Positions 5,049 to 63,429 of a DNA stretch of 64,000 nt are shown in pieces; positions within the stretch are counted from its first letter, which is position 1; every line of letters begins with the position of its first letter. Source of the DNA: Gammaproteobacteria bacterium (GTDB lineage Bacteria > Pseudomonadota > Gammaproteobacteria > S012-40); assembly GCA_029881255.1 (NCBI GenBank), contig JAOUMY010000007.1, positions 124,001 through 188,000 on the forward strand. The letters are read 5' to 3'. Position numbers and translations under genes: made by a program. The notes below the pieces were generated by a model. That model made no database searches. It was not told the origin of the DNA and worked only from the letters and a program-made list of their open reading frames with translations.

Positions 5049-6482
5049 ATGGCTGAAGAAGTACAAGCAAAACAGGTGATCGATCAGGAGAGCGTCGATT
5101 CACTCTATAATGAAATCGACTATTGGCATGTCAACACCGGCGGTGAAACCATACATGCGCGCCGTCTGCCAGGTTTTTTTCGCAATCTTAAGTGGATGAC
5201 GGCAAGCACCTGGCTGGTTTTTCTGTTAGGACCGTATATGCGTTGGGACGGCCAGCAGGCGATCTGGTTTGATATTGGTAGCCGTCAATTTCATATCTTT
5301 AGTATCACCATATTGCCGCAAGACGTATGGATGCTGGCGCTGGTTATGCTGTTTTTCGCGCTTTTGCTCGCAGCGGTAACATCGATTGCCGGTCGCGTCT
5401 ATTGTGGTTATTTTTGTTTTCAAACGGTATGGACGGACATCTTCGTGTGGATAGAAGAAAAGCTCGAAGGTCAGCCCGTCAAACGTATGAAACTGGACAA
5501 GGCGCCATGGGATTTTTACAAGATTCGCGTCAAGTTGATCAAGCATATTCTGTATATCCTGATCGGCACGTTTACCGGTATCACCTTCACACTCTGGTTT
5601 GCTGATGCTTTTGAAATGTGGCAGGCCTATTTTAGTTTGCAGGCGCCTATGATCGCCTGGCTTTCCGTCGGCGTGTTCACGTTTTTTACCTATCTCTTTG
5701 CCGGACACATGCGCGAGCAGGTGTGTTTCTGGCTGTGTCCCTATGCCCGCATACAAGGCGTAATGGTGGACCGTACCACGATTTTACCGACTTACGACCT
5801 GCGTCGTGGCGAACCCCGTGGCAAGCTAAAGAAAGGCGAGGAGTCAGTCAACAATCAGGGTGATTGCATTGATTGCAAGCAATGCGTAAGTGTCTGTCCG
5901 ACAGGTATCGATATCAGAAACGGTCAGCAAGAGGGGTGTATTACCTGTGCGTTGTGTATTGATGCCTGTGATTCGGTCATGGATAAAATCCACAAACCTC
6001 ACGGCCTGATTCGTTACGTGTCCCTGGATGAGATGATGGGCAAGACGCCACCATCGGTGTTCAAACGTCCTCGCGTTATCGTGTATTTCAGTATGCTGTT
6101 ACTTGCCGTTGTCGGAATTATTTATGGCCTAACCCATCTTGGCGCGCTAGAACTCAAGGTCTTGCATGAACGTCAGCCACTGTTTGTGATACAGAGCGAC
6201 GGTTCGATTCAAAACAAATATGAACTCAAGGTGCTGAACAAAACAGATAATGAAATGAAGTTGGCTGTGGAAATAAATGGGTTGGCTGAGATGCAATTGA
6301 TAGGCGTCGATCGGGATTTGTTTGCCACCCACGGACGAGTGAATGCCTATACGGTATTCATACGTGTCCCGCCGCAGACACTCAGTACGGAGCGGACGCC
6401 AGTAGAATTCATCGTAAGAGATGCCACCAATACGCAATTGAGTGTTAGTTATAAGAGTATGTTTTACGGGCCGAAGCCCTAG
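5049..6482 (+). CDS. ccoG: Cytochrome c oxidase accessory protein, polyferredoxin-like
   Basis: CcoG/RdxA/FixG, a membrane iron-sulfur protein of 477 residues involved in handling copper for cbb3 assembly. Five or so membrane helices are visible, with paired Cys in the first half (CGYFCFQTVW, CFWLCPYARIQG) followed by two 4Fe-4S motifs in a cytoplasmic loop (CIDCKQCVSVCP and CITCALCIDACD). The last ~110 residues after a final helix form an Ig-like periplasmic domain. It begins 14 bases after the small peptide gene with GGAGG as ribosome binding site and is followed by ccoH. Confidence 0.96.
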   Translation: MAEEVQAKQVIDQESVDSLYNEIDYWHVNTGGETIHARRLPGFFRNLKWMTASTWLVFLLGPYMRWDGQQAIWFDIGSRQFHIFSITILPQDVWMLALVMLFFALLLAAVTSIAGRVYCGYFCFQTVWTDIFVWIEEKLEGQPVKRMKLDKAPWDFYKIRVKLIKHILYILIGTFTGITFTLWFADAFEMWQAYFSLQAPMIAWLSVGVFTFFTYLFAGHMREQVCFWLCPYARIQGVMVDRTTILPTYDLRRGEPRGKLKKGEESVNNQGDCIDCKQCVSVCPTGIDIRNGQQEGCITCALCIDACDSVMDKIHKPHGLIRYVSLDEMMGKTPPSVFKRPRVIVYFSMLLLAVVGIIYGLTHLGALELKVLHERQPLFVIQSDGSIQNKYELKVLNKTDNEMKLAVEINGLAEMQLIGVDRDLFATHGRVNAYTVFIRVPPQTLSTERTPVEFIVRDATNTQLSVSYKSMFYGPKP

Positions 6483-6501
6483 CGTTTATCAGGAGGTGTA
6501 T

Positions 6502-7047
6502 ATGGGACTCAGCAAGGCAATCAGTGAAATGCGGCGACACACGTCGCAGTCCAGTAATGAAGCACTACGCAATCCCTGGGTACTGGCTATTATCGGCATC
6601 ATGGCGACGTTTGTAACCGTCAATCTCGCGTTTATCTTTATCGCGTTCGTCACAAGTCCGGGTTTAGTCGTTGAAGACTATTATGAACGTGGTCGTGCCT
6701 ATGAAAAAAATGCGCTCAAGATGATGGCTGCTACGCATGGCACACGCGCGTGGGAGACTCGCCTGGATATGGAGAACGAGATCTGGGTTGGCAAGTCTCA
6801 AGCTATTCGTTTTTCTGCCGTCGATGAAAGGGGACTGGCGATCGAGGAGGCCAGCGTGCAACTGATAGCCTACCGACCTTCGGATGCGAATCGTGATATT
6901 GAAACGCTAATGAGGCAAATCGCGCCTGGGATTTTTGAGGCAGAAATTACTTTTCCGCTAAAAGGCATATGGGACGTAAAAATACACATACGCCAGGGAG
7001 AAAATCAGTTTGAACTGGCGAAGCGTATTTCGGTATTGTCAATGTGA
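6502..7047 (+). CDS. ccoH: Cytochrome cbb3 maturation protein FixH/CcoH
   Basis: FixH-family protein of 181 residues. One N-terminal membrane helix (about residues 28-52, in a NPWVLAIIGIMATFV context) is followed by a short conserved VVEDYYERGRAYEK segment and a periplasmic beta-rich domain. The ATG at 6502 is chosen because AGGAGGTG lies just before it; longer in-frame starts run into ccoG. Its stop overlaps the ccoI start as GTGA, so the two are translated together. CcoH is needed for cbb3 assembly and works with CcoI. Confidence 0.9.
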   Translation: MGLSKAISEMRRHTSQSSNEALRNPWVLAIIGIMATFVTVNLAFIFIAFVTSPGLVVEDYYERGRAYEKNALKMMAATHGTRAWETRLDMENEIWVGKSQAIRFSAVDERGLAIEEASVQLIAYRPSDANRDIETLMRQIAPGIFEAEITFPLKGIWDVKIHIRQGENQFELAKRISVLSM

Positions 7048-9777: not shown

Positions 9778-10449
9778 CTACTCAGCGGCAAGTGGCTCGA
9801 CCATAAGTGGCGTTTGTATGGTATGAAAATTCGCAGGCGACACATATTGTAATACTTCCCTGTTTTTTGCATCGAGTGTAACATCCAGTCCTAACTGAGG
9901 GTAAAGCCAGTGCTCTGATGCGTTGTGTGGGTCGGGTATACGTTGTGATGGCTTGCCGAATCGAGACAATATCTGTTCTGCATCGAGATTTACTGCGGGA
10001 AGATAGGTAATGCTTTGTATGGCAGAGTCACGTACACGGTGCCGGTCTTCGGTTGCGATGCTGACCTTATTGCTACCACTGGGCGCTTTGCTGATGCGCA
10101 CGCCGTGTTGAAACATTTGCGCGAGTTCTTGCGAAGGGACTTGCATTACCAGAATCATTTTGGCAGAAAGTCCGCCTAATTCGACCTTGTCGAAATAGGC
10201 CTCAACCGTGTAGTCATTGTCGTTTTTACGGAAGAGACTGATTTCACCGTCGGCCTTCAGACTGCTCTCTGCCTCAGCCAGTGTGCTGGTACCCAGTGTA
10301 AGGCCAAAGACACGGCTGGTTTGTTCAGTAAGTTCAATTTGCCAGGGCAGTCCGTCTTTCGTTTCTGGCTCTGACAGGGGTAGATTCAAGGCAATGACTA
10401 ATATCAGAATGCTAAACCCCAGTGCGCCAAGAAATATCTTTGTCTCCAT
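9778..10449 (-). CDS. Unknown single-span envelope protein next to ccoS
   Basis: 223 residues with an N-terminal membrane anchor (about residues 5-24) and a soluble, probably periplasmic remainder. Visible features are VFGLTLGTSTLAEAESSL and a later WLYPQLGLDVTLDA segment. I do not recognise a named family. It converges on ccoS and shares a 54-base divergent gap with the SafE-like gene. A function linked to the oxidase is possible from its position but is not shown by the sequence. Confidence 0.75.
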   Translation of the reverse strand: METKIFLGALGFSILILVIALNLPLSEPETKDGLPWQIELTEQTSRVFGLTLGTSTLAEAESSLKADGEISLFRKNDNDYTVEAYFDKVELGGLSAKMILVMQVPSQELAQMFQHGVRISKAPSGSNKVSIATEDRHRVRDSAIQSITYLPAVNLDAEQILSRFGKPSQRIPDPHNASEHWLYPQLGLDVTLDAKNREVLQYVSPANFHTIQTPLMVEPLAAE

Positions 10450-10506
10450 TTTTGCTTTATCCCAGTTTCCGAGAGTTGCAGTGTATCAAAATCTGAAAGA
10501 TATGTG

Positions 10507-11232
10507 ATGAACGATCCGGTTACTCTCGGCAGTGCCTTTATCATCGGATTGCTAGGCGGAGCGCACTGCATTGGCATGTGTGGCGGTATTGTCAATGCCT
10601 TGAGTCTAGCGATTAGGCAGGACGCCAATTCACGCGCAAACAGATTCAACATTCTTTTGCTTTACAATCTTGGGCGTATCAGTAGTTATGTGTTGGTCGG
10701 TGTGTTGATTGGGCTGCTTAGCGCGTTACTTCAAGAACAGTTTCTTTTGATTGGTGTAGTGCTGAGATTCCTTTCCGGGCTATTGCTTATAGCGTTAGGA
10801 TTGTATCTAGCCGGCTGGTGGTGGGGCCTGCGTTACCTTGAGCGTTTTGGTTCAATCGCGTGGAGCATTCTGCAACCGCTTGCAAATAGATTGCTGCCTG
10901 TGAGGTCTGTAGTGCAGGCTCTGCCACTCGGAATGGTATGGGGCTGGTTTCCCTGTGGCATGGTCTATAGTGTATTGACCTGGTCGGCAACTGCTGAGGA
11001 CTGGAAATACTCGGCCCTCGTCATGTTGTTTTTTGGGTTAGGGACGCTACCGGTCATGTTGCTTACAGGCGAGTTGTCACATAAGTTAAAGGCAGGAATA
11101 CAAAACACTTATGTAAGGCGGGTCGCAGGTCTGGTTATTATTTTCTTCGGTCTTTGGGCAACATTCGTGCCTTTCACCGATGGTAAGCATGATAGAAGTG
11201 AAACTTCAGTCCACAATCAAGTGCATCATTGA
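10507..11232 (+). CDS. Sulfite exporter TauE/SafE-family membrane protein
   Basis: About 241 residues with six membrane helices. The opening motif GGAHCIGMCGGIVNALS and a second WGWFPCGMVYSVLTW segment are typical of the COG2836 group often found beside cbb3 maturation genes in gammaproteobacteria. These conserved Cys pairs in helices suggest handling of metal or thiol redox, and copper-related roles have been proposed for neighbours of ccoI; the substrate is not shown here. GTG at 10504 or ATG at 10507 are both possible; the ATG is given. It is transcribed divergently from the unknown envelope gene. Confidence 0.85.
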   Translation: MNDPVTLGSAFIIGLLGGAHCIGMCGGIVNALSLAIRQDANSRANRFNILLLYNLGRISSYVLVGVLIGLLSALLQEQFLLIGVVLRFLSGLLLIALGLYLAGWWWGLRYLERFGSIAWSILQPLANRLLPVRSVVQALPLGMVWGWFPCGMVYSVLTWSATAEDWKYSALVMLFFGLGTLPVMLLTGELSHKLKAGIQNTYVRRVAGLVIIFFGLWATFVPFTDGKHDRSETSVHNQVHH

Positions 11233-11255
11233 TTACATATGATCTCGCGGAGTTT

Positions 11256-12110
11256 CTAATGTCTGACGGAGGCAAGTAAGGCGTCAAATAATTTATAACT
11301 GCTCGCTATAGCGTCGGTTGCACTCGCATAATAACTGTCTGGATTGATGTTGACGACCTGGGTCGAAATCAATTCCTTACGCGCCAATTTGATGAAGTCC
11401 TCGCCCTTTTTCAGGCAGGAACTGAAGGCCTCTCTCAATGCGATCAATGAGTGATTGCTGGATTTCGAAAGTGGTGTGATGGTGTCGCTCAATATGACGT
11501 GACACTTATCCACCAGAAAGCGTAGTTTTAGTTGTTCTGCAACCGTTGAGCTGGATTTTGCCGCTACCCCTGTTCCTAAACCTCTCACCTGGCCGAAAAA
11601 TTCAAGTAGACGTGGAAGGTCGGTAGAAAGCGCCTTAATGAGCAACTTTTCCTGCGTGTTGTATTCGTAAAGCGACGCTAGTTCGCACACGTCTTCTATC
11701 TGATCAACGAGCTTCGAAACAAGCAGAGTATGGCGGGAAAAACTTTCTTCAGGCGTAAGACTAAAAACCTGGCCCTTTAAAGAATTCCAGCTATCCATCA
11801 CAAATTTTGTTTGCGTATTTTCATATACCGAAGATCTATCGATAGCCACCTGTTGAAAGTTTTCGAGATCGCTTTTCAACTTAGTTTGTATGGCAATCGC
11901 CTTGTCCTTGAAAGATGCATCGCCATGAAGAAAGGCATTAGCAATACCCCGATGTTGCTGAAGATGTTCCATAAACTGCCTTGAAGAGGCGATGAAACGA
12001 AATGCCCATTGATGTCGGCGTTTGAATTCTCGATCAACCTTGTATGAATTTAGGTAGGCGAATATGATGGTCGAAAATACGATGGTTATCGGTAGAATAG
12101 ATTTCAACAT
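11256..12110 (-). CDS. Membrane-anchored NIT-like sensor protein
   Basis: 284 residues with one N-terminal membrane helix (about 3-20) and a long all-helical remainder. The segment LQQHRGIANAFLHG (about 50-63) matches the QRERG-like motif that opens nitrate- and nitrite-sensing NIT domains, and a second QVRGLGTGVAA segment (about 174-184) fits the repeated half of such domains. It lacks any output domain. It lies 32 bases after the chemoreceptor gene on the same strand, suggesting that it works as a separate sensor. Ligand specificity is an inference. Confidence 0.7.
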   Translation of the reverse strand: MLKSILPITIVFSTIIFAYLNSYKVDREFKRRHQWAFRFIASSRQFMEHLQQHRGIANAFLHGDASFKDKAIAIQTKLKSDLENFQQVAIDRSSVYENTQTKFVMDSWNSLKGQVFSLTPEESFSRHTLLVSKLVDQIEDVCELASLYEYNTQEKLLIKALSTDLPRLLEFFGQVRGLGTGVAAKSSSTVAEQLKLRFLVDKCHVILSDTITPLSKSSNHSLIALREAFSSCLKKGEDFIKLARKELISTQVVNINPDSYYASATDAIASSYKLFDALLASVRH

Positions 12111-34351: not shown

Positions 34352-36427
34352 ATGCCATTTACTCAGGATTCACGTTTACTGTCACTGACCACTCCCCTAG
34401 GAGCCAATGCCTTAATACCGGTATCTTTTTCAGGCGCTGAACACATCTCACAGCCCTTTGCCTTTACCCTGGAAATGATTTCGGAAGACAGCGCCATCAA
34501 GGCCAAAGACATCATTGGACAGGCGGTAGATGTGGGGATACGACTTGATGACGGCAGTCAACGCCAGTTCAACGGAATTGTCAGTCGCTTTGTTGCAGGC
34601 GAGCGGCATTCTTCAGGGTTGCGTAGCTATTTCGCAGAGCTGGTACCCTGGTTTCAGTTGTTAACGCTCTATAACGATTGTCGAATTTTTCAGGCCAAGA
34701 ATGCCAAGGCGATTATCGAAGAAGTTTTTCAATCGCGCGGTTTCAGCGATTTCGAAATCAACACCACGCGTTCCTTTCGTGACCGTGAGTATACCGTTCA
34801 ATATCGCGAATCTGATTTCGCATTCGTATGCCGATTGATGGAAGAAGAAGGGATTTACTATTTCTTCAAGCATGAGTCTGGTAAACACACCATGGTGTTA
34901 GGCGACGCCAATAGTACCTTCAGTGCCTGCCCGGAAGCCAATGCGCGTTATATCGAATCCGGTGCCAATGAAAACCATCTTTATGATTGGTCGCAACAGT
35001 TTGAATTAATCCCAGGTAAGTGGGTGCAACAGGATTACAACTTCACCAAGCCAAGTACGAATTTAATGACGAATACGTCAACGGTTGTTGACGCACCTGA
35101 GATCAAAGATTTCGAACAGTATGATTATCCTGGTTTGTACGCCGCTAAAGGTGATGGAGATGGCCTGACTCGTGTGCGAATGGAAGAGGAAGAGGCGCAA
35201 TACAATATCGTTACGGCTGCCGGTAACTATCGTAGCTTTTGCGCTGGCGGAACGTTTACACTGGATGAACACAGTATCGATTCGGAAACCGGTAAGAGTT
35301 ATCTCATTACTTCGATTTCCCATCACGCACGTGACAATAGCTTTGAGTTGAATCAGGGCGGCGGTCATCAGTACCAAAACAGTTTTCAGTGTATTCCCGA
35401 TTCGGTTGTATTCCGTCCACGCAGTGTGACGCCAAAGCCGGTTGTTAAAGGTCCGCAAACTGCGCTTGTGGTTGGTCCTTCTGGCGAAGAGATCCACGTC
35501 GATGAATATGGTCGCATCAAGGTCCAGTTTCACTGGGACCGCGTTGGAGAGAAAAACGAAAACAGTTCCTGCTGGTTGCGCGTGTCGCAACAATGGGCGG
35601 GTAAAAAGTGGGGCGCGATTTTCACACCACGTATCGGACACGAAGTTATTGTCAGTTTTCTCGAGGGTGACCCGGATCAACCGATAGTCACTGGTAGCGT
35701 ATACAATGCTGAGAACATGCCTCCGTATGATTTGCCTGCGAATAAAACCCAGAGCGGTTGGAAGACACGTTCAAGCAAAGATGGTGGAACCTCTAACTAC
35801 AACGAGATTCGTTTCGAAGATAAGAAGGGTAGTGAAGAGCTGTATATTCACGCCGAGAAAGATCAGAACAATGTTGTTGAGAATGATGAGACTACCGAAG
35901 TCGGGAATGATCGGACTGAGAACGTCGCCAAGAATGAAACGATTACGATTGGTGATAATCGTACCGAGTCGGTAGGGAAGAATGAGAGTATTTCGATTGG
36001 GGAGAATCGGAGTGAGGATGTCGGTAAGAATGAAACCGTTAGCATCGGTGAAAACCAAACACTAAGCGTCGGCAAGAATCGCACGGTTGACGTTGGCAAA
36101 AACGAAACAATAAGCATTGGTGATAGCCAGACAATCTCTGTCGCTAAGGATCAAAACGAAGACATAGGTAAGGCGGTGTCTTTGACCATAGGTGACAAGC
36201 GTACTACCCAAGTTGGTAAGGACGACATGCTTGACGTTGGCAAGAAATACACCTTGGTTGCCGCCGATGAGATTACGCTGAAAACAGGCAAGGCCAGCAT
36301 CGTCATGAAAAAAGACGGCACGATTACCATCAAGGGTAAAGACATCAAGATCGAAGGCACGGGTAAGATCAATGTCAAGGCATCTAAAGATGTGGTGCTC
36401 AAAGGCAGCAAGGTATTGGCAAACTAA
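34352..36427 (+). CDS. vgrG: Type VI secretion spike protein VgrG
   Basis: 691 residues. The N-terminal ~370 residues form the gp27-like domain (opening with LTTPLGANALIPVSFSGAEHISQPFAF), followed by the OB-fold spike base (from about 372, VDEYGRIKVQFHWD, then SCWLRVSQQWAGKKWG and GHEVIVSFLEGDPDQPI). A triple beta-helix spike of about 15 octapeptide repeats spans 517-636, then a charged end. No extra C-terminal effector domain is fused, so cargo is carried by separate genes. It overlaps the DUF6484-like gene by one base and starts the cargo operon. Confidence 0.96.
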   Translation: MPFTQDSRLLSLTTPLGANALIPVSFSGAEHISQPFAFTLEMISEDSAIKAKDIIGQAVDVGIRLDDGSQRQFNGIVSRFVAGERHSSGLRSYFAELVPWFQLLTLYNDCRIFQAKNAKAIIEEVFQSRGFSDFEINTTRSFRDREYTVQYRESDFAFVCRLMEEEGIYYFFKHESGKHTMVLGDANSTFSACPEANARYIESGANENHLYDWSQQFELIPGKWVQQDYNFTKPSTNLMTNTSTVVDAPEIKDFEQYDYPGLYAAKGDGDGLTRVRMEEEEAQYNIVTAAGNYRSFCAGGTFTLDEHSIDSETGKSYLITSISHHARDNSFELNQGGGHQYQNSFQCIPDSVVFRPRSVTPKPVVKGPQTALVVGPSGEEIHVDEYGRIKVQFHWDRVGEKNENSSCWLRVSQQWAGKKWGAIFTPRIGHEVIVSFLEGDPDQPIVTGSVYNAENMPPYDLPANKTQSGWKTRSSKDGGTSNYNEIRFEDKKGSEELYIHAEKDQNNVVENDETTEVGNDRTENVAKNETITIGDNRTESVGKNESISIGENRSEDVGKNETVSIGENQTLSVGKNRTVDVGKNETISIGDSQTISVAKDQNEDIGKAVSLTIGDKRTTQVGKDDMLDVGKKYTLVAADEITLKTGKASIVMKKDGTITIKGKDIKIEGTGKINVKASKDVVLKGSKVLAN
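35900..36259 (+). repeat. Octapeptide repeats of the VgrG beta-helix spike
   Basis: About fifteen degenerate 24-base units coding for the pattern [VI]G-x-N-x-T-x-x. Each unit is one strand turn of the trimeric spike needle. The repeat DNA is diverged at wobble positions, so it is old and not freshly amplified. Confidence 0.85.
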
Positions 36428-56452: not shown

Positions 56453-56583
56453 ATGAGTAATCGAAATTTTCTAAAAAATATTTCTATAGTTTACCTCTTT
56501 GTATTTTCTTCTTTTGCAGTTCTTCTAACAAAGCCGAACGTATGAAGGATAGGGATGAGTTTGAGATTAGGATTGATGACTAG
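56453..56583 (+). pseudogene. Deleted, frameshifted remnant of the 324-residue secreted paralogue
   Basis: An ATG at 56453 opens a signal-peptide-like segment (SNRNFLKNISIVYLFVFSSF) that stops at 56543-56545. From 56530 to 56583, in another frame, the DNA codes for KAERMKDRDEFEIRIDD and a stop, which is the C-terminal end of the two intact paralogues that follow (KADRMKDKDEFEIRIDD). So the start and the very end of a third copy are joined with the middle lost and the frame broken. The deletion point is near 56528. Confidence 0.75.
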
Positions 56584-56611
56584 ACGGCGATACAATTGCG
56601 TTGTTTATATT

Positions 56612-57586
56612 ATGTCAGTAATAAAAAAACTATTCACGTCTTTCCTTCTTTGCTTTTTGTGTGTTGCTAATATCTACGCAGAAACTTTAAGAGATCCACG
56701 TTTTCGAGATGAAGATATATCAATGGCAATCATAAGTTCGTCATATAAACAATTGCCAGACGGTATGTATGAATATCTTTTTAATATTGAAAGTCCCGAG
56801 TTAAATAAAGGTACTATTGCACATTTTTCTTTGGATGTTTCATGTAATACAACATTTTCTCCCACAGTATTTTCGGAACCGCCAATTGGAAATTTTTTTA
56901 CTAATGACAGTTCCGACGGTTTGCACTTGCCGTTACAGGCGTACGGTGTGATGTACTATACATACGGAATGGGCATAACGGGTGATAACCGATTAGTATG
57001 GGGTGTAGGAATTGAACCTGGGAAAAAGGCAATTGGATATCGAGTTTTGTCGCCGGTTCGTCCGGGAAAAATTCGCTATATATTGGAGCCAAGAATGGAT
57101 GTTGATGGTTGGGATTATCACACGTATTCGGTAGAAACCGACGAAGTTCCCGACCTGCCAGATTTTGTAACAACAGGGATAGTAGATGGACCCGTATGTC
57201 CAGGTAATAGTGATATGTTTTCAGGTAGTAACTACAAGCGAAGCGAGCCTTCACGGATAAACAATCTTCTACGATACTCTGAACCATCAAAAGACCGATT
57301 CCACGTAAAAAATGGCACGAAAGAAGTAAAGTTTACTATCCACTATAGTGAAGAAATGGATCCAAAAACATTCAATGTAGAACCTGGCTATATAAAGCAC
57401 TTTTTCAATCCTGTACCTGGAATATCACAGACCGTCATGTTGCCACTAAAAATGAATGGAAAAGACAGTAAGAAGGCCAAGTTCAAATTCGAGGCGCGGA
57501 TGATCGGTGTGGCGACAGGCAAAGATAAAACCAAGGCCGATCGTATGAAGGATAAGGATGAGTTTGAGATTCGAATTGACGACTAA
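56612..57586 (+). CDS. Secreted protein of unknown function, paralogue 1
   Basis: 324 residues from the ATG at 56612, which opens a signal peptide ending near NIYAETL; a start at 56555 overlaps the pseudogene tail and is not supported. Visible blocks: RDEDI after the signal, ESPELNKG, LQAYGVMYYTYG, LVWGVGIEPGKKAIGYRV, and a C-terminal domain (about 225-324) with HYSEEMDPKTFNVEPGYIKHF, which has the look of an Ig-like fold. Same length as paralogue 2 (37 bases downstream). No family recognised. It lies upstream of the hydrolase/lipoprotein pair. Confidence 0.75.
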   Translation: MSVIKKLFTSFLLCFLCVANIYAETLRDPRFRDEDISMAIISSSYKQLPDGMYEYLFNIESPELNKGTIAHFSLDVSCNTTFSPTVFSEPPIGNFFTNDSSDGLHLPLQAYGVMYYTYGMGITGDNRLVWGVGIEPGKKAIGYRVLSPVRPGKIRYILEPRMDVDGWDYHTYSVETDEVPDLPDFVTTGIVDGPVCPGNSDMFSGSNYKRSEPSRINNLLRYSEPSKDRFHVKNGTKEVKFTIHYSEEMDPKTFNVEPGYIKHFFNPVPGISQTVMLPLKMNGKDSKKAKFKFEARMIGVATGKDKTKADRMKDKDEFEIRIDD

Positions 57587-57623
57587 GCAGGGTTACGCCG
57601 AAAGCCACCTGAGGTGACAGTCA

Positions 57624-58598
57624 ATGACTATGAAATTATTAATAATGTGGTTCTTCGGGGTTTGTTCCCTTCTTGTTTCGTCTTTGGCAGTATCACAAAC
57701 GCTTAAAGACCCGAAAGAACGCGATGAAGACTTATCGAATACAGTAGTCAGGGTAAAGGTAAATTCACTTCCTGATGGGAATTTTGAGTACATTTACGAT
57801 GTTGAGAGTCCTGAACTAAACAAGGGTGAGATTGACACGTTTACATTGGATATTGGATGTGATCATTCTTTCTCTGGCGTGGTATTTTCAGAAAGTCCTA
57901 GCAGGATGTTTAGAAGTATGAGCCAGGATGGAAAGCACGTTCCTATACAAGCCTACGGGGTGATGTATCATACCTATGCTTTAGCAGTTAATGCATACAA
58001 TGAGATGGTGTGGGGAGTGGAAATTAAGCCTGGACAAAATGCGCTTGGATATCGTGTCATTTCTTCTGTAGGACCTGGCAATATTACATATAAATTAAAG
58101 CCGATCATGGAGCCCAATGGTTGGAACTTCGATTTGTATCCAGAAGATGACCCGTTAGTGCCAACAGTAGATGACTTTATAGTAACGGGAACGGTAGTTG
58201 GGCCTAAGTGCCCCAGTCATGTAGAACAATTTCTAGGAACCAATAAGAATCACAAAGAACCAGAAGATGTGAACGAACTCCTAAGCTATTCATCACCTCT
58301 CAAAGATCGTTTCCATGTCAAGAAGGGTACGAAAGAGATAGAGCTTACTGTTCACTATAGTGAAAAAATGGACCCAAAAACATTCAATGCAGAACCAGGT
58401 TATATAAAACACTTTTTCAATCCTGTACCTGGAACATCACAGACCGTCATGTTGCCGCTAAAAAAGAATGGAAAAGACAGTAAGAAAGCCAAATTCAAAT
58501 TTGAGGCACGAATGATCGGTGTGGCGACGGGCAAAGACAAGACCAAGGCCGATCGTATGAAGGATATGGACGAGTTTGAGATTCGAATTGATGACTAG
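57624..58598 (+). CDS. Secreted protein of unknown function, paralogue 2
   Basis: 324 residues, the same length as paralogue 1. Signal peptide ends near LAVSQTL. N-terminal two thirds are clearly homologous but diverged (VESPELNKGEIDTFTLD, IQAYGVMYHTYA, MVWGVEIKPGQNALGYRV), while the last ~100 residues are nearly identical to paralogue 1 (HYSEKMDPKTFNAEPGYIKHF, KAKFKFEARMIGVATGK). This mosaic suggests recombination between copies. Function unknown. Confidence 0.75.
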   Translation: MTMKLLIMWFFGVCSLLVSSLAVSQTLKDPKERDEDLSNTVVRVKVNSLPDGNFEYIYDVESPELNKGEIDTFTLDIGCDHSFSGVVFSESPSRMFRSMSQDGKHVPIQAYGVMYHTYALAVNAYNEMVWGVEIKPGQNALGYRVISSVGPGNITYKLKPIMEPNGWNFDLYPEDDPLVPTVDDFIVTGTVVGPKCPSHVEQFLGTNKNHKEPEDVNELLSYSSPLKDRFHVKKGTKEIELTVHYSEKMDPKTFNAEPGYIKHFFNPVPGTSQTVMLPLKKNGKDSKKAKFKFEARMIGVATGKDKTKADRMKDMDEFEIRIDD

Positions 58599-58762
58599 GT
58601 GGCTTATCCGAAGTTCGAAAGGGTGGCTGGCGGAACGAGGTAGAACGAATCTAGGCGCTAGAATTTAACACTTTGAGTATTAAAGCGTTTTTCTGGCATA
58701 GTCTTCCCCTACCATTTTTTGTTATGATGGCCGCTCATAAGCAGGCAAAAAAGAGCAAGAAT

Positions 58763-61216
58763 ATGCAGGCCGGCGAATATTCCGCTATCGGTTTCAACGA
58801 CATCCATGATCTCACACCTCATGTCTTTCTATATGAGTGGCAGGTTTGCGAGCACATCACGCAGCTGCGCTGGTTGCTTGAGTCGATTGGTCATCAAGAT
58901 TTAGAGGGTAAGAGCGACGAGGCACTGGCCGAAATCGCCATCAGCAGTCTGCAACAATGCCTGCTGTATATCGCTGCTCAGCCCGGTGTTGAACAGCCCT
59001 TGCACCAATGGCTGGTTAGTAGTGCCGACTTTGCTGGGATGCAGTTCAACGCCCAGGCAATGATTGCGGCAGCGAAAGAGGCAGAACAGCGTCCGCCACC
59101 CCCGGTGGCTGACAAGCAACCACGCATTGCTCACCTGCGCTGGAGCGAATCACGCAAACCCTTGGGCATGCCGGTGAACCTGATATTTTCCGCGCAGAAT
59201 TTTGTGGCCGGTGATGTAGCAACGGTGACGATTTATCAAACACCGAAGAACGGCGAGAAACAAAAACTCACCACCCTCGAACACACACTAATGCGCGCGA
59301 GTGAATCCTGCTCGCTGACCTGGCATGTGCAAGCATTGACCAATGGTGATGATGTGTTGTGCGAACAGCCGCCGGAAAATCTCGTGCCGGTGTATTTTGT
59401 ATTTGTGGTGGAGATAAACGGGCAATGTTCCGAAGTTTCCGACCCGCTGTATACCAGTACCTATTTCGAATACACGATTATAGGACCGCATGAATTACCC
59501 ATATGCGTGGACGATTCCAGCGCGACCTTGCACGACAAGGGTAAACAACAACACAAACGCTGGCGCGACCAAGGCACAGATTTTGTACGCGTACCGCTAC
59601 ACGAATCCAAGATCGAATCCTGGTATGAGATACACAAGACACAATTGTGTGATGCCGAAGACAATGTGCTGGCAGAACAACAACACCCCATAGGCTTTGA
59701 AACGCCGTTTATCCTACCCGTCAGTTGTAAATCGCACTATCGTGTAAAAAGCCAGGCATTGTTCCCACAAGTCATCGTCAATCTGCGTGAAGATGCGAGC
59801 AAGGGCGACCCGAATCGACGACATCTATTGAGCGATGCCGAGATCGAATATTTTAAGGCGAATGGCAATAACGCGACGGTGTTTGTGCATGGGTTTAATG
59901 TGAAGTACGGTGTTTCCGCTCGTCAGGTGGAGAGTGTAGAGATCAAGAAGGAAAGTTATACCAGTCACAAAGATGGTTATAGTGTTGATCTGGGATATCG
60001 GATTAATGTTCGTCATGCGGGTAAACAAGCTAGAACGACCTGTATCGATCAACAATATTTATCGGAGCATTTTCATCCCGATTTTGCGAAAGATGAAATC
60101 TATTGGCAAATAGACGATGACCAAATCAACGGATCGGCCGCGCACAGTTGGTTTGTACATATGGAGCACGAACTGAATCTGGCGGCCAATGGAGGAGATG
60201 AGATTGACTGGGATAAGTATACTCGGATCATCAACGTGGCCTGGTCGGGTGACGTAAACCCGGTTGAGTATATTGAAGCGGAGTTTCGTGCGACTTCAGC
60301 AGGAGTCAGGCTAAGTTTGTTGTTGGAACAATTAGTCTCGGAAGGCATTCGCATCAATATTATTGCCCACAGTCTCGCCAACCGAGTTGTTTTGACCGCG
60401 TTCAATTTACTAGGCGAAAAAGGCATAGAGGAAAAAATCGACCACCACTTTATGTGGCAGCCCGCGGTACCGGATACCGTGTTGTCGAATGATCCCGAAG
60501 CAGACAGCAGCGTATTACGCAATTGGAAGATGATTCACGCCCACAAGGCGGCGAAAAAATTTGTAGTACTTTATACTGCGCATGATAATGTGCTAGGTGG
60601 TCACCCCGCAGGCGGATTCAAAGAAGACATTACCGGTGGTAATGACCATTTGATCAAACTGGAAGAAGCGCTAGGCGGACAATTAAGTGGTGCATATACA
60701 ATCGCAACAATTATCGGGATACCCGGTGGGCGATTCTTCATGCCCTGGCATCGTGCCGATCGCAACCAACGAAGAATTCAAAACCTGCTAAGCGATCACG
60801 GTAAGCAGGTGAGCGAGGAGTTGAAGGAGGCATTGAAACGATACGAAGACGGCATTCCGATGGATGAGTTGAAACCGCATTGGTATGATATTCTGTGTTC
60901 GTATTTTTATCAGCGCCGGGTAGAAGGAAGGGTGTTAGATGATCTGATAACGATTCGGAATGAGCTGGAAGAGAAGGGAATTGAGGTCAAAAAGCCTCGG
61001 CCGGCGTTGGGGTGGGCTGGGATAAAGAATGCTGTCGATATTGATGAAAGTATCAGGGCTATGTTTCTCGCCGGAAAGATTATTGAGGTTGATCAGGGAA
61101 AGTGGTTGTATTCGCATTCGGGGATGAAAATTCCTACGAAGGATTTGCGTGAATATGTCTATCGTAACGAAATTCTAGACCGGATGAAAATACAATCAGG
61201 ATTCGGAACGTATTGA
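58763..61216 (+). CDS. Alpha/beta hydrolase (DUF900-like), possible T6SS lipase effector
   Basis: 817 residues from the ATG at 58763; in-frame starts at 58724 (ATG) and 58673 (TTG) add up to 30 residues. The fold core is visible as ATVFVHGFNV (His376 region) and INIIAHSLANRVVL with the nucleophile Ser537, and a late His lies in HAHKAAKKFVVLYT or further on; this matches DUF900-type hydrolases. No signal peptide. The large N-terminal half (about 1-370) is beta-rich and unrecognised and may bind the spike or the target. It overlaps the WD40-like lipoprotein gene, as lipase effectors and their immunity lipoproteins often do. Confidence 0.72.
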   Translation: MQAGEYSAIGFNDIHDLTPHVFLYEWQVCEHITQLRWLLESIGHQDLEGKSDEALAEIAISSLQQCLLYIAAQPGVEQPLHQWLVSSADFAGMQFNAQAMIAAAKEAEQRPPPPVADKQPRIAHLRWSESRKPLGMPVNLIFSAQNFVAGDVATVTIYQTPKNGEKQKLTTLEHTLMRASESCSLTWHVQALTNGDDVLCEQPPENLVPVYFVFVVEINGQCSEVSDPLYTSTYFEYTIIGPHELPICVDDSSATLHDKGKQQHKRWRDQGTDFVRVPLHESKIESWYEIHKTQLCDAEDNVLAEQQHPIGFETPFILPVSCKSHYRVKSQALFPQVIVNLREDASKGDPNRRHLLSDAEIEYFKANGNNATVFVHGFNVKYGVSARQVESVEIKKESYTSHKDGYSVDLGYRINVRHAGKQARTTCIDQQYLSEHFHPDFAKDEIYWQIDDDQINGSAAHSWFVHMEHELNLAANGGDEIDWDKYTRIINVAWSGDVNPVEYIEAEFRATSAGVRLSLLLEQLVSEGIRINIIAHSLANRVVLTAFNLLGEKGIEEKIDHHFMWQPAVPDTVLSNDPEADSSVLRNWKMIHAHKAAKKFVVLYTAHDNVLGGHPAGGFKEDITGGNDHLIKLEEALGGQLSGAYTIATIIGIPGGRFFMPWHRADRNQRRIQNLLSDHGKQVSEELKEALKRYEDGIPMDELKPHWYDILCSYFYQRRVEGRVLDDLITIRNELEEKGIEVKKPRPALGWAGIKNAVDIDESIRAMFLAGKIIEVDQGKWLYSHSGMKIPTKDLREYVYRNEILDRMKIQSGFGTY

Positions 61217-61221
61217 TTGAA

Positions 61222-62370
61222 ATGAATAGGGTATTCGCAACAATAGTTATTTTGTTGGTTTTTCTTGGATGTCAGGAATTCTCTCCATTTGATGGCAAAA
61301 CAACCCCTGTTGTCACATTACATGTTTCGGAAAATGGAAATACCGTAATTAGTACACATATTTCTAATGAGTTGGTGGTGTGGGATTTATCAAATAAAAA
61401 TAAAAATGTTCAGTCCACAGAAGCAAATATCTATAGTGCTTATGTGACAAAAAAAGGCGATTTTTATTTATGGCAGGATCTTCAAAACACGGTTTTTGTC
61501 AATAGCCTTGGTCAAGGCGTAGTCAAAAAATTCAAACATTTTCCCGTGTACGGGCATTGGATTTCAAATGATTTGGGAAAATATGTTTCATTGGATATCG
61601 ATTGGTCCCTAAATATAAATTATGGAAACAAAGTAGAGAAAATATACTCTGGCGACAAGAACAGTTTTCTGGGCGCTCATAAATTATTGAATTTTTCTGC
61701 ATCAAGAAGCGAGGAAATTTTTCTTACCTCTGGTTATGGCTATGATTGGACTCCCGATCCCCGACGATCTGAAAAGGCAAACCTAGATGCTATGCGATTA
61801 TCATATAAAGGCGTCGTTCTTTGGGATGCATCGATAAAAAAGGAGATCACTAGATTACCCGGCAACGCCGCCAAAACCCACGCTACCCTCAGCCCAGACG
61901 GAAAATTCGTCGTTAGCGGCGACGAAAACGCCAGAGTATTTTTATGGGACGTTAATAATCCAAAAACACCTCTCAGAATGGCCAGTCTATTTCACGGGAC
62001 TGTCATCAATCCAAATGAGCACTACACAAAATACAAGTGGGATAAAACAGGGCTTATCCAACCGCCTAAAGACTACTCTGGTGAACGTGTCATTACCGTC
62101 AAATTCATCAGCAATAAACACTTCCTCCGCTTCGGCCACGATAACCACTACGCAGTTCTCTACGAGATCGGCAACCCACTCCCACTAAAATACTTGGAGT
62201 TAGGAACGGACCCTTATCCCTGCGTATCAGACTACTCTCGCAACGCCTGCATCGACACCGCCCCCGACGTCGGTATCTTGGTCATGGGCCAACGTGACGG
62301 CGGCGGGATTAACGTCTACCAGTTCGACAAGGAAAAACTTAGCCTGGAAAAGGTTTGGGTGACGAACTAA
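61222..62370 (+). CDS. WD40-like lipoprotein, possible immunity partner of the hydrolase
   Basis: 382 residues from the ATG at 61222. Lipoprotein signal ends at LVFLGC (Cys17). The mature part has WD40-type strands: NELVVWDLSNKN, GVVLWDASIKKEI, ATLSPDGKFVVSGDENAR and VFLWDVNNP, fitting a beta-propeller in the periplasm. It starts six bases after the hydrolase stop. Immunity proteins of T6SS phospholipases are often periplasmic lipoproteins, so a protective role is a fair inference. The DNA is AT-rich in its first half and less so after about 61860. Confidence 0.7.
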   Translation: MNRVFATIVILLVFLGCQEFSPFDGKTTPVVTLHVSENGNTVISTHISNELVVWDLSNKNKNVQSTEANIYSAYVTKKGDFYLWQDLQNTVFVNSLGQGVVKKFKHFPVYGHWISNDLGKYVSLDIDWSLNINYGNKVEKIYSGDKNSFLGAHKLLNFSASRSEEIFLTSGYGYDWTPDPRRSEKANLDAMRLSYKGVVLWDASIKKEITRLPGNAAKTHATLSPDGKFVVSGDENARVFLWDVNNPKTPLRMASLFHGTVINPNEHYTKYKWDKTGLIQPPKDYSGERVITVKFISNKHFLRFGHDNHYAVLYEIGNPLPLKYLELGTDPYPCVSDYSRNACIDTAPDVGILVMGQRDGGGINVYQFDKEKLSLEKVWVTN

Positions 62371-62615: not shown

Positions 62616-63029
62616 ATGGATATTTCAGCGAAACTCGAATTAGTCAAAAATGCCCTGGTGGATCGCTTCGGGGCGGATCTTGTCGCGATATATTTGTTTG
62701 GGTCGACAGCACAGGGACTAGATAATCAGTACAGCGATATGGATATCGGGTTTTTGAGTCGCGCTAGAATTGCACCTAAAGATGTCTGGGAAATTGGGCA
62801 GGAACTTGCGGTTACTCTGAAGCAGAACGTCGATTTGATCGAGCTTAAAAATGCGTCAACAGTAATGCGTATGCAGATTGCCGGCGAGGGTAAACGAATC
62901 TATTGCAGTGATGAAATAGCCTGCGAAAATTTCGAGGATTACATCTTTTCATCCTATGCGCGTCTGAATGAAGAGCGAAAGGATATAATCGCGGATATCA
63001 AGAAGCGTGGAAGTGTTTATGGTCGATGA
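62616..63029 (+). CDS. mntA: MntA-type nucleotidyltransferase antitoxin
   Basis: 137 residues with the minimal nucleotidyltransferase motif LFGSTAQGLDNQYSDMDIG (Gly29-Ser30, Asp41, Asp43). MntA adds AMP groups to a Tyr of the HepT toxin and so neutralises it. It overlaps the next gene by 11 bases, the usual arrangement of this toxin-antitoxin type. Confidence 0.9.
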   Translation: MDISAKLELVKNALVDRFGADLVAIYLFGSTAQGLDNQYSDMDIGFLSRARIAPKDVWEIGQELAVTLKQNVDLIELKNASTVMRMQIAGEGKRIYCSDEIACENFEDYIFSSYARLNEERKDIIADIKKRGSVYGR

Positions 63030-63429
63030 TGTTTTGTTGAATAAGGCAGAGAGCATCGAGCGCTGCCTGAAGCGAATCGCCGAAGAATACGTGGGACACG
63101 AATCTGAGTTGCGCACAAACTTTAGCCGCCAGGACGCGATCATACTCAATCTTCAGCGCCTGTGTGAGTCCTCGATAGATGCGGCTATGCACATTGTGCG
63201 CAAGGAGAAATTGGGTATTCCACAAGAGAGCCGGGAAGCCTTTGAAATGCTCGAGAAGCATGGTCTGCTCAATCCCTCGTTGTCGGATCAATTGAATTAT
63301 ATGACTAGATTTTGGATTGTCGCAGTTCATGACTACCAAAAGCTCAATCTGGATGTGGTTGAGTCTATACTCAAAAACCACCTCGACGAGTTTCGTGAAT
63401 ATGTAAAGGTCATCTTGGGCCGAAGTTAG
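63019..63429 (+). CDS. hepT: HepT-type RNase toxin
   Basis: 136 residues, all-helical HEPN fold. The catalytic motif is RFWIVAVHDYQ, giving Arg97, His104 and the modified Tyr106 (R-X6-H-X-Y), which is the hallmark of HepT. ATG at 63019 overlaps mntA; a GTG at 63007 would add four residues. Together with MntA it forms a complete system. Confidence 0.9.
   Translation: MVDDVLLNKAESIERCLKRIAEEYVGHESELRTNFSRQDAIILNLQRLCESSIDAAMHIVRKEKLGIPQESREAFEMLEKHGLLNPSLSDQLNYMTRFWIVAVHDYQKLNLDVVESILKNHLDEFREYVKVILGRS

Follow-up and report, generated by a model that had tools for sequence, protein, structure and literature searches.

The window analysed here is a 64,000-nt stretch of a gammaproteobacterial contig, in which two adjacent genes, A and B, lie downstream of a short fragment related to their 3′ ends. 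The features to which the text refers are as follows.

34352–36427: VgrG gene
56453–56545, forward strand: short signal-peptide-like ORF of 30 aa, MSNRNFLKNISIVYLFVFSSFAVLLTKPNV, out of frame with the remnant in the next line
56529–56583, forward strand: 3′-terminal remnant of a third paralogue, approximately its last 18 codons including the stop, found by blastn and whole-genome search
56612–57586, forward strand: gene A, a 324-codon ORF from the likely ATG, with homologues in other genomes
57290–57586, forward strand: C-domain of A, the homogenised stretch, placed by its 88.9% nucleotide identity to B over 296 nt and by a breakpoint test
57624–58598, forward strand: gene B, a 324-codon ORF from the likely ATG, with an AlphaFold model
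58302–58598, forward strand: C-domain of B, the homogenised stretch, placed by blastn, the breakpoint test and silent-site rates
58673–61216, same strand as A and B: alpha/beta hydrolase gene with a weak DUF900 match
61213–62370: lipoprotein-like WD40 gene, following the hydrolase gene

Both ORFs are intact, are spaced 37 nt apart and begin with signal-peptide-like N-termini; the longest mechanical ORF of gene A begins further upstream, at 56555. B has a good AlphaFold model (mean pLDDT 85.6, pTM 0.82) with two beta domains, the second of which is the region covered by the homogenised stretch. The architecture is a signal peptide followed by beta domains at about residues 27–196 (N-terminal) and about 220–322 (C-terminal). 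No interpretable hit came from fold searches with B: all were generic beta-sandwich folds, and most TM-scores lay near 0.2. The genes are AT-rich (GC 0.39–0.41, versus 0.515 for mucD), which fits a variable spot and is no proof of transfer; relatives within the same family differ in what follows mucD, which by inspection of the ORFs is often a gene for polysaccharide biosynthesis. Given the VgrG gene, the hydrolase and WD40 genes could encode a lipase effector and its partner. Further along the window, a Polbeta/MNT-type nucleotidyltransferase gene (62616–63029) and a HepT-like gene (63007–63429) overlap by 23 nt, as in a toxin–antitoxin-type module.

Neither Pfam nor PHROGs yielded a match to A or B at E ≤ 1, NCBIfam none for B at E ≤ 0.1, PADLOC none for A or B at E ≤ 0.1, and PDB sequences none for either protein. 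Four other genomes of the same class carry homologues; they are designated G031 (three copies, D, E and F), G246, G345 and G356 (two copies, H and I), leaving out a weak partial match in G181, and most copies share an ELKDPxxRDEDIS-like start after the signal peptide. The search for further copies suggested in the initial annotation of this DNA recovered one more homologue in the window’s own genome, on contig C24 (38% identity), and none elsewhere in it. Within a phylum sample of 398 genomes the family was found only in the window’s own genome, and no relative was detected on plasmids, phages or viral contigs, leaving a plasmid or phage origin without any indication. By these searches the family is undescribed and rare, its known members being from a few Gammaproteobacteria. 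Several loci near family members deserve mention. The C24 paralogue adjoins a TumE/HVO_A0114-type pair. On the same contig, locus L022 holds a second cassette (9882–11999), in which an exported gene showing a weak likeness to M15_4 (E 0.16) precedes the gene of a two-domain exported protein; the latter also has a degraded copy in inverted orientation (6410–6778; 75–79% nucleotide identity), adjoining the C24 paralogue. Elsewhere, lipoprotein-like genes resembling the C-domain alone adjoin full-length family genes (L026, 5268–5741; L027, 5951–6586).

The relationship between A and B changes abruptly along their length. By blastn, positions 57290–57585 align with 58302–58597, and the match terminates at the stop codons. 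Identity per 60-nt window lies at 47–68% up to approximately nt 720 and at 85–95% thereafter, and the best single breakpoint falls at codon 227, with 55.1% nucleotide identity before it versus 88.8% after it (all nucleotides; 0/2000 codon shuffles as extreme). Where the two proteins carry the same amino acid, the codons are identical at 34/105 positions (32%) before the breakpoint versus 60/76 (79%) after it, a jump that no shuffle of 5000 equalled. Protein identity is ~89–90% in the C-domain and 49% in the N-domain, where silent differences are saturated; in the C-domain dN is 0.043 and dS 0.58 (dN/dS ~0.07). The sharp 3′ rise in silent identity is very probably the product of recombination between the copies, with gene conversion as the best explanation. 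Because silent sites of the C-domain still differ by 40%, this homogenisation is not recent. Protein constraint on the C-domain has also been strong since the recombination event. The initial annotation had described two 324-residue secreted proteins with diverged fronts and nearly identical last ~100 residues. Its lengths and its division of the proteins are borne out by the ORFs and the breakpoint, and the alignment with windowed identity that it proposed gave a sharp change rather than even divergence; “nearly identical” holds roughly for the proteins but not for their silent sites.

Upstream of A, the 55-nt remnant matches B at 49/55 nt and A at 48/54, and was recovered by the whole-genome search too. 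This agrees with the earlier description of a fragment that codes for the same C-terminal end behind a separate signal-peptide-like start in another frame, the latter being the ORF at 56453–56545. An ATG-led signal as strong as that of this ORF arose in 0.65% of shuffles within the last 140 nt, and in 2.6% when allowed anywhere in 368 nt. The ORF is probably the start of a deleted third copy, its frame shifted relative to the remnant, and the two features together fit a third copy reduced by internal deletion. Of the duplication, deletion and conversion of one cassette that had been proposed, then, duplication, a deleted third copy and 3′ homogenisation all stand, but swappable N-terminal parts are not shown for A and B. 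Their N-domains are homologous, simply old and diverged, and the pair is thus explained by copying of the tail rather than by a proven swap of heads.

Breakpoints of the same kind are present in D/E, D/F and E/F of G031 and in H/I of G356, two distant genomes; they lie near where the two domains meet, and silent identity rises sharply. The G031 copies share 92–96% identity in the C-domain and 69–73% in the N-domain, and H and I share 66% and 30%, respectively; in the identity matrix all other pairs range from 24 to 53% in the C-domain and from 29 to 41% in the N-domain. None of the between-genome, A/C24 and B/C24 pairs tested has a silent-codon breakpoint, and the C24 paralogue is not homogenised with A and B despite residing in the same genome. 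These data bear on the alternative that the pattern arose without recombination, protein constraint being simply stronger on the C-domain than on the N-domain. The low dN/dS of the A/B C-domain confirms that constraint certainly acts too, but silent codons switch identity at the same place, and in comparisons of different genomes the C-domain exceeds the N-domain in conservation by little, its tail being hardly conserved. On the silent sites we reject this reading as very improbable. The high C-domain identity of the homogenised sets, against its low value in all other pairs, is also hard to obtain by protein constraint alone, while recombination between copies can produce it; the contrast points to recurrent gene conversion in addition to constraint. 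Coupling this evidence with the anatomy of the genes, we conclude that A and B are probably tandem paralogues of an undescribed exported protein family.

In 6/10 family copies the gene immediately upstream is M74-like, resembling those of murein endopeptidases. Its product is a predicted exported protein of 425–515 aa with its own signal peptide, whose C-terminal domain carries conserved LSxNDxxLxxGG and HxxHRxGxxID motifs and a final HxR; at copy D the LSxNDxxLxxGG part is absent. Compared with two M74 proteins obtained through PF03411, this domain gave an hhalign probability of 86.7 (E 4.4e-6), the match covering 60 columns only. Of the M74 metal-ligand pattern, GG..HxSHxxGxDxD with an HxHxR-type motif, the partners conserve candidate counterparts in H, H, D and the final HxR. 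The likeness to Peptidase_M74/LAS, which concerns the partner gene alone, is suggested by motif order and this profile match. The partner falls below the Pfam cut-off for M74 (best E 0.11, 12.5 bits, against a gathering score of 25) and differs from that family in its long N-terminal beta-rich extension; its structure model (pLDDT 56) is too poor for a fold search. “M74-like” is accordingly used here as a lead suggested by motifs and profile. A search with the partner profile found no such gene in the window or elsewhere in the window’s genome.

In G031, a valley of divergence (51–82% nucleotide identity) comprises the last ~50 codons of the partner gene and the N-domain of the family gene, flanked by a partner 5′ part at 94–100% (D/E) and a C-domain mostly at 95–99% (D, E and F). 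Homology stops downstream of F, and D and E have a common inverted repeat of 6.2 kb. The repeat (96% identity; G031:C1 ~582–602 kb, loci L020 and L021) carries two of the three cassettes, and transposase-like ORFs were seen nearby by inspection. Because the divergent block crosses into the upstream gene between conserved flanks, exchange of cassettes might have occurred in G031. Positive selection on the N-domain was looked for in this genome and not seen, dN/dS being ~0.2–0.3. The A/B pattern is unlikely to be an artefact of assembly: both ORFs are intact and differ from each other, and other assemblies show the pattern again, among them G031, which is a single contig.

The likeliest role, which we put forward tentatively, is to act in the periplasm against cell-wall peptidases, as an inhibitor or immunity protein. 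The variable N-domain would carry specificity, the shared C-domain might serve as a common docking or stability module, and A and B would be orphan copies without a peptidase partner. We infer this role because the variable exported head with a shared tail, the recurrent recombination, the decayed copies and the peptidase-like linkage resemble tipC and esaG, tandem immunity paralogues that recombine through conserved blocks (PMC9484751) and the closest precedent for recombining tandem immunity genes. As with them, A and B are tandem paralogues in which conserved blocks alternate with variable ones and between which recombination has taken place; tipC also has one conserved block near its 3′ end, and its product is located on the outer face of the membrane (PMC9484751). 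Unlike tipC and esaG, A and B belong to an unrelated family in a Gram-negative host, have no conserved 5′ end, and have no effector beside them or cognate toxin gene at the locus. Type VI clusters of Vibrio cholerae contain arrays of orphan immunity genes without an effector, shaped by homologous recombination (PMC5361080), and A and B, as putative orphan immunity genes shaped by recombination, would resemble them. They are non-homologous to such arrays, however, and do not stand at the end of a type VI cluster, since the nearest sign of one, the VgrG gene, is ~20 kb away. By analogy, A and B could also work like Bd3460 of Bdellovibrio, a self-protection protein that inhibits peptidoglycan endopeptidases (PMC4686830). 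Bd3460 has an ankyrin fold, whereas A and B have two beta domains. We know of no copy homogenisation for Bd3460.

The signal peptide of the partner, unlike typical injected effectors, counts against an immunity role. Nearly as likely, and doubtful in its own right, is that family members assist a wall-processing peptidase as accessory or substrate-binding subunits, anchored by the shared C-domain, with copies differing in substrate or wall type; the gene order shared by G031, G345 and G356, in which the M74-like gene comes first, and the C-domain-only lipoprotein-like gene adjoining full-length genes in G356, would suit such subunits, but A, B and the C24 and G246 copies have no recognised partner. 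We regard it as unlikely that these are adhesins or other surface-exposed proteins whose variable heads have diversified in response to phages or protists: although the products are exported beta-sandwich proteins whose top fold matches include MSCRAMM adhesins, those matches (TM-scores ~0.2) are too weak for use, no anchor or repeat structure was seen, and the linkage to a peptidase-like gene would be left unexplained. Quite improbable, too, is that A and B are immunity proteins for the next gene, as a candidate type VI lipase effector. The hydrolase gene adjoins them on the same strand, the VgrG gene lies upstream, and by inspection no signal peptide is evident in the hydrolase; however, the family is not beside such a hydrolase in any other genome found, the hydrolase has a better candidate partner in the WD40 gene that follows it, and its GC content of 0.485 is unlike that of A and B.

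Returning to immunity against wall peptidases, a speculative but possible extension is that the family forms an undescribed exported specificity or immunity class whose members pair with M74-like wall peptidases. Recombination would repeatedly reset the shared C-domain, and the peptidase end and the N-domain would co-diversify across the gene boundary as a single cassette. What has been found is an unannotated exported family, linked to a wall-peptidase-like gene, in which one domain has been homogenised within genomes, recurrently in three lineages. If the N-domain and the peptidase end do co-diversify, environmental Gammaproteobacteria would have here a small specificity system that is open to testing, and cognate pairs could be found from divergence profiles alone.
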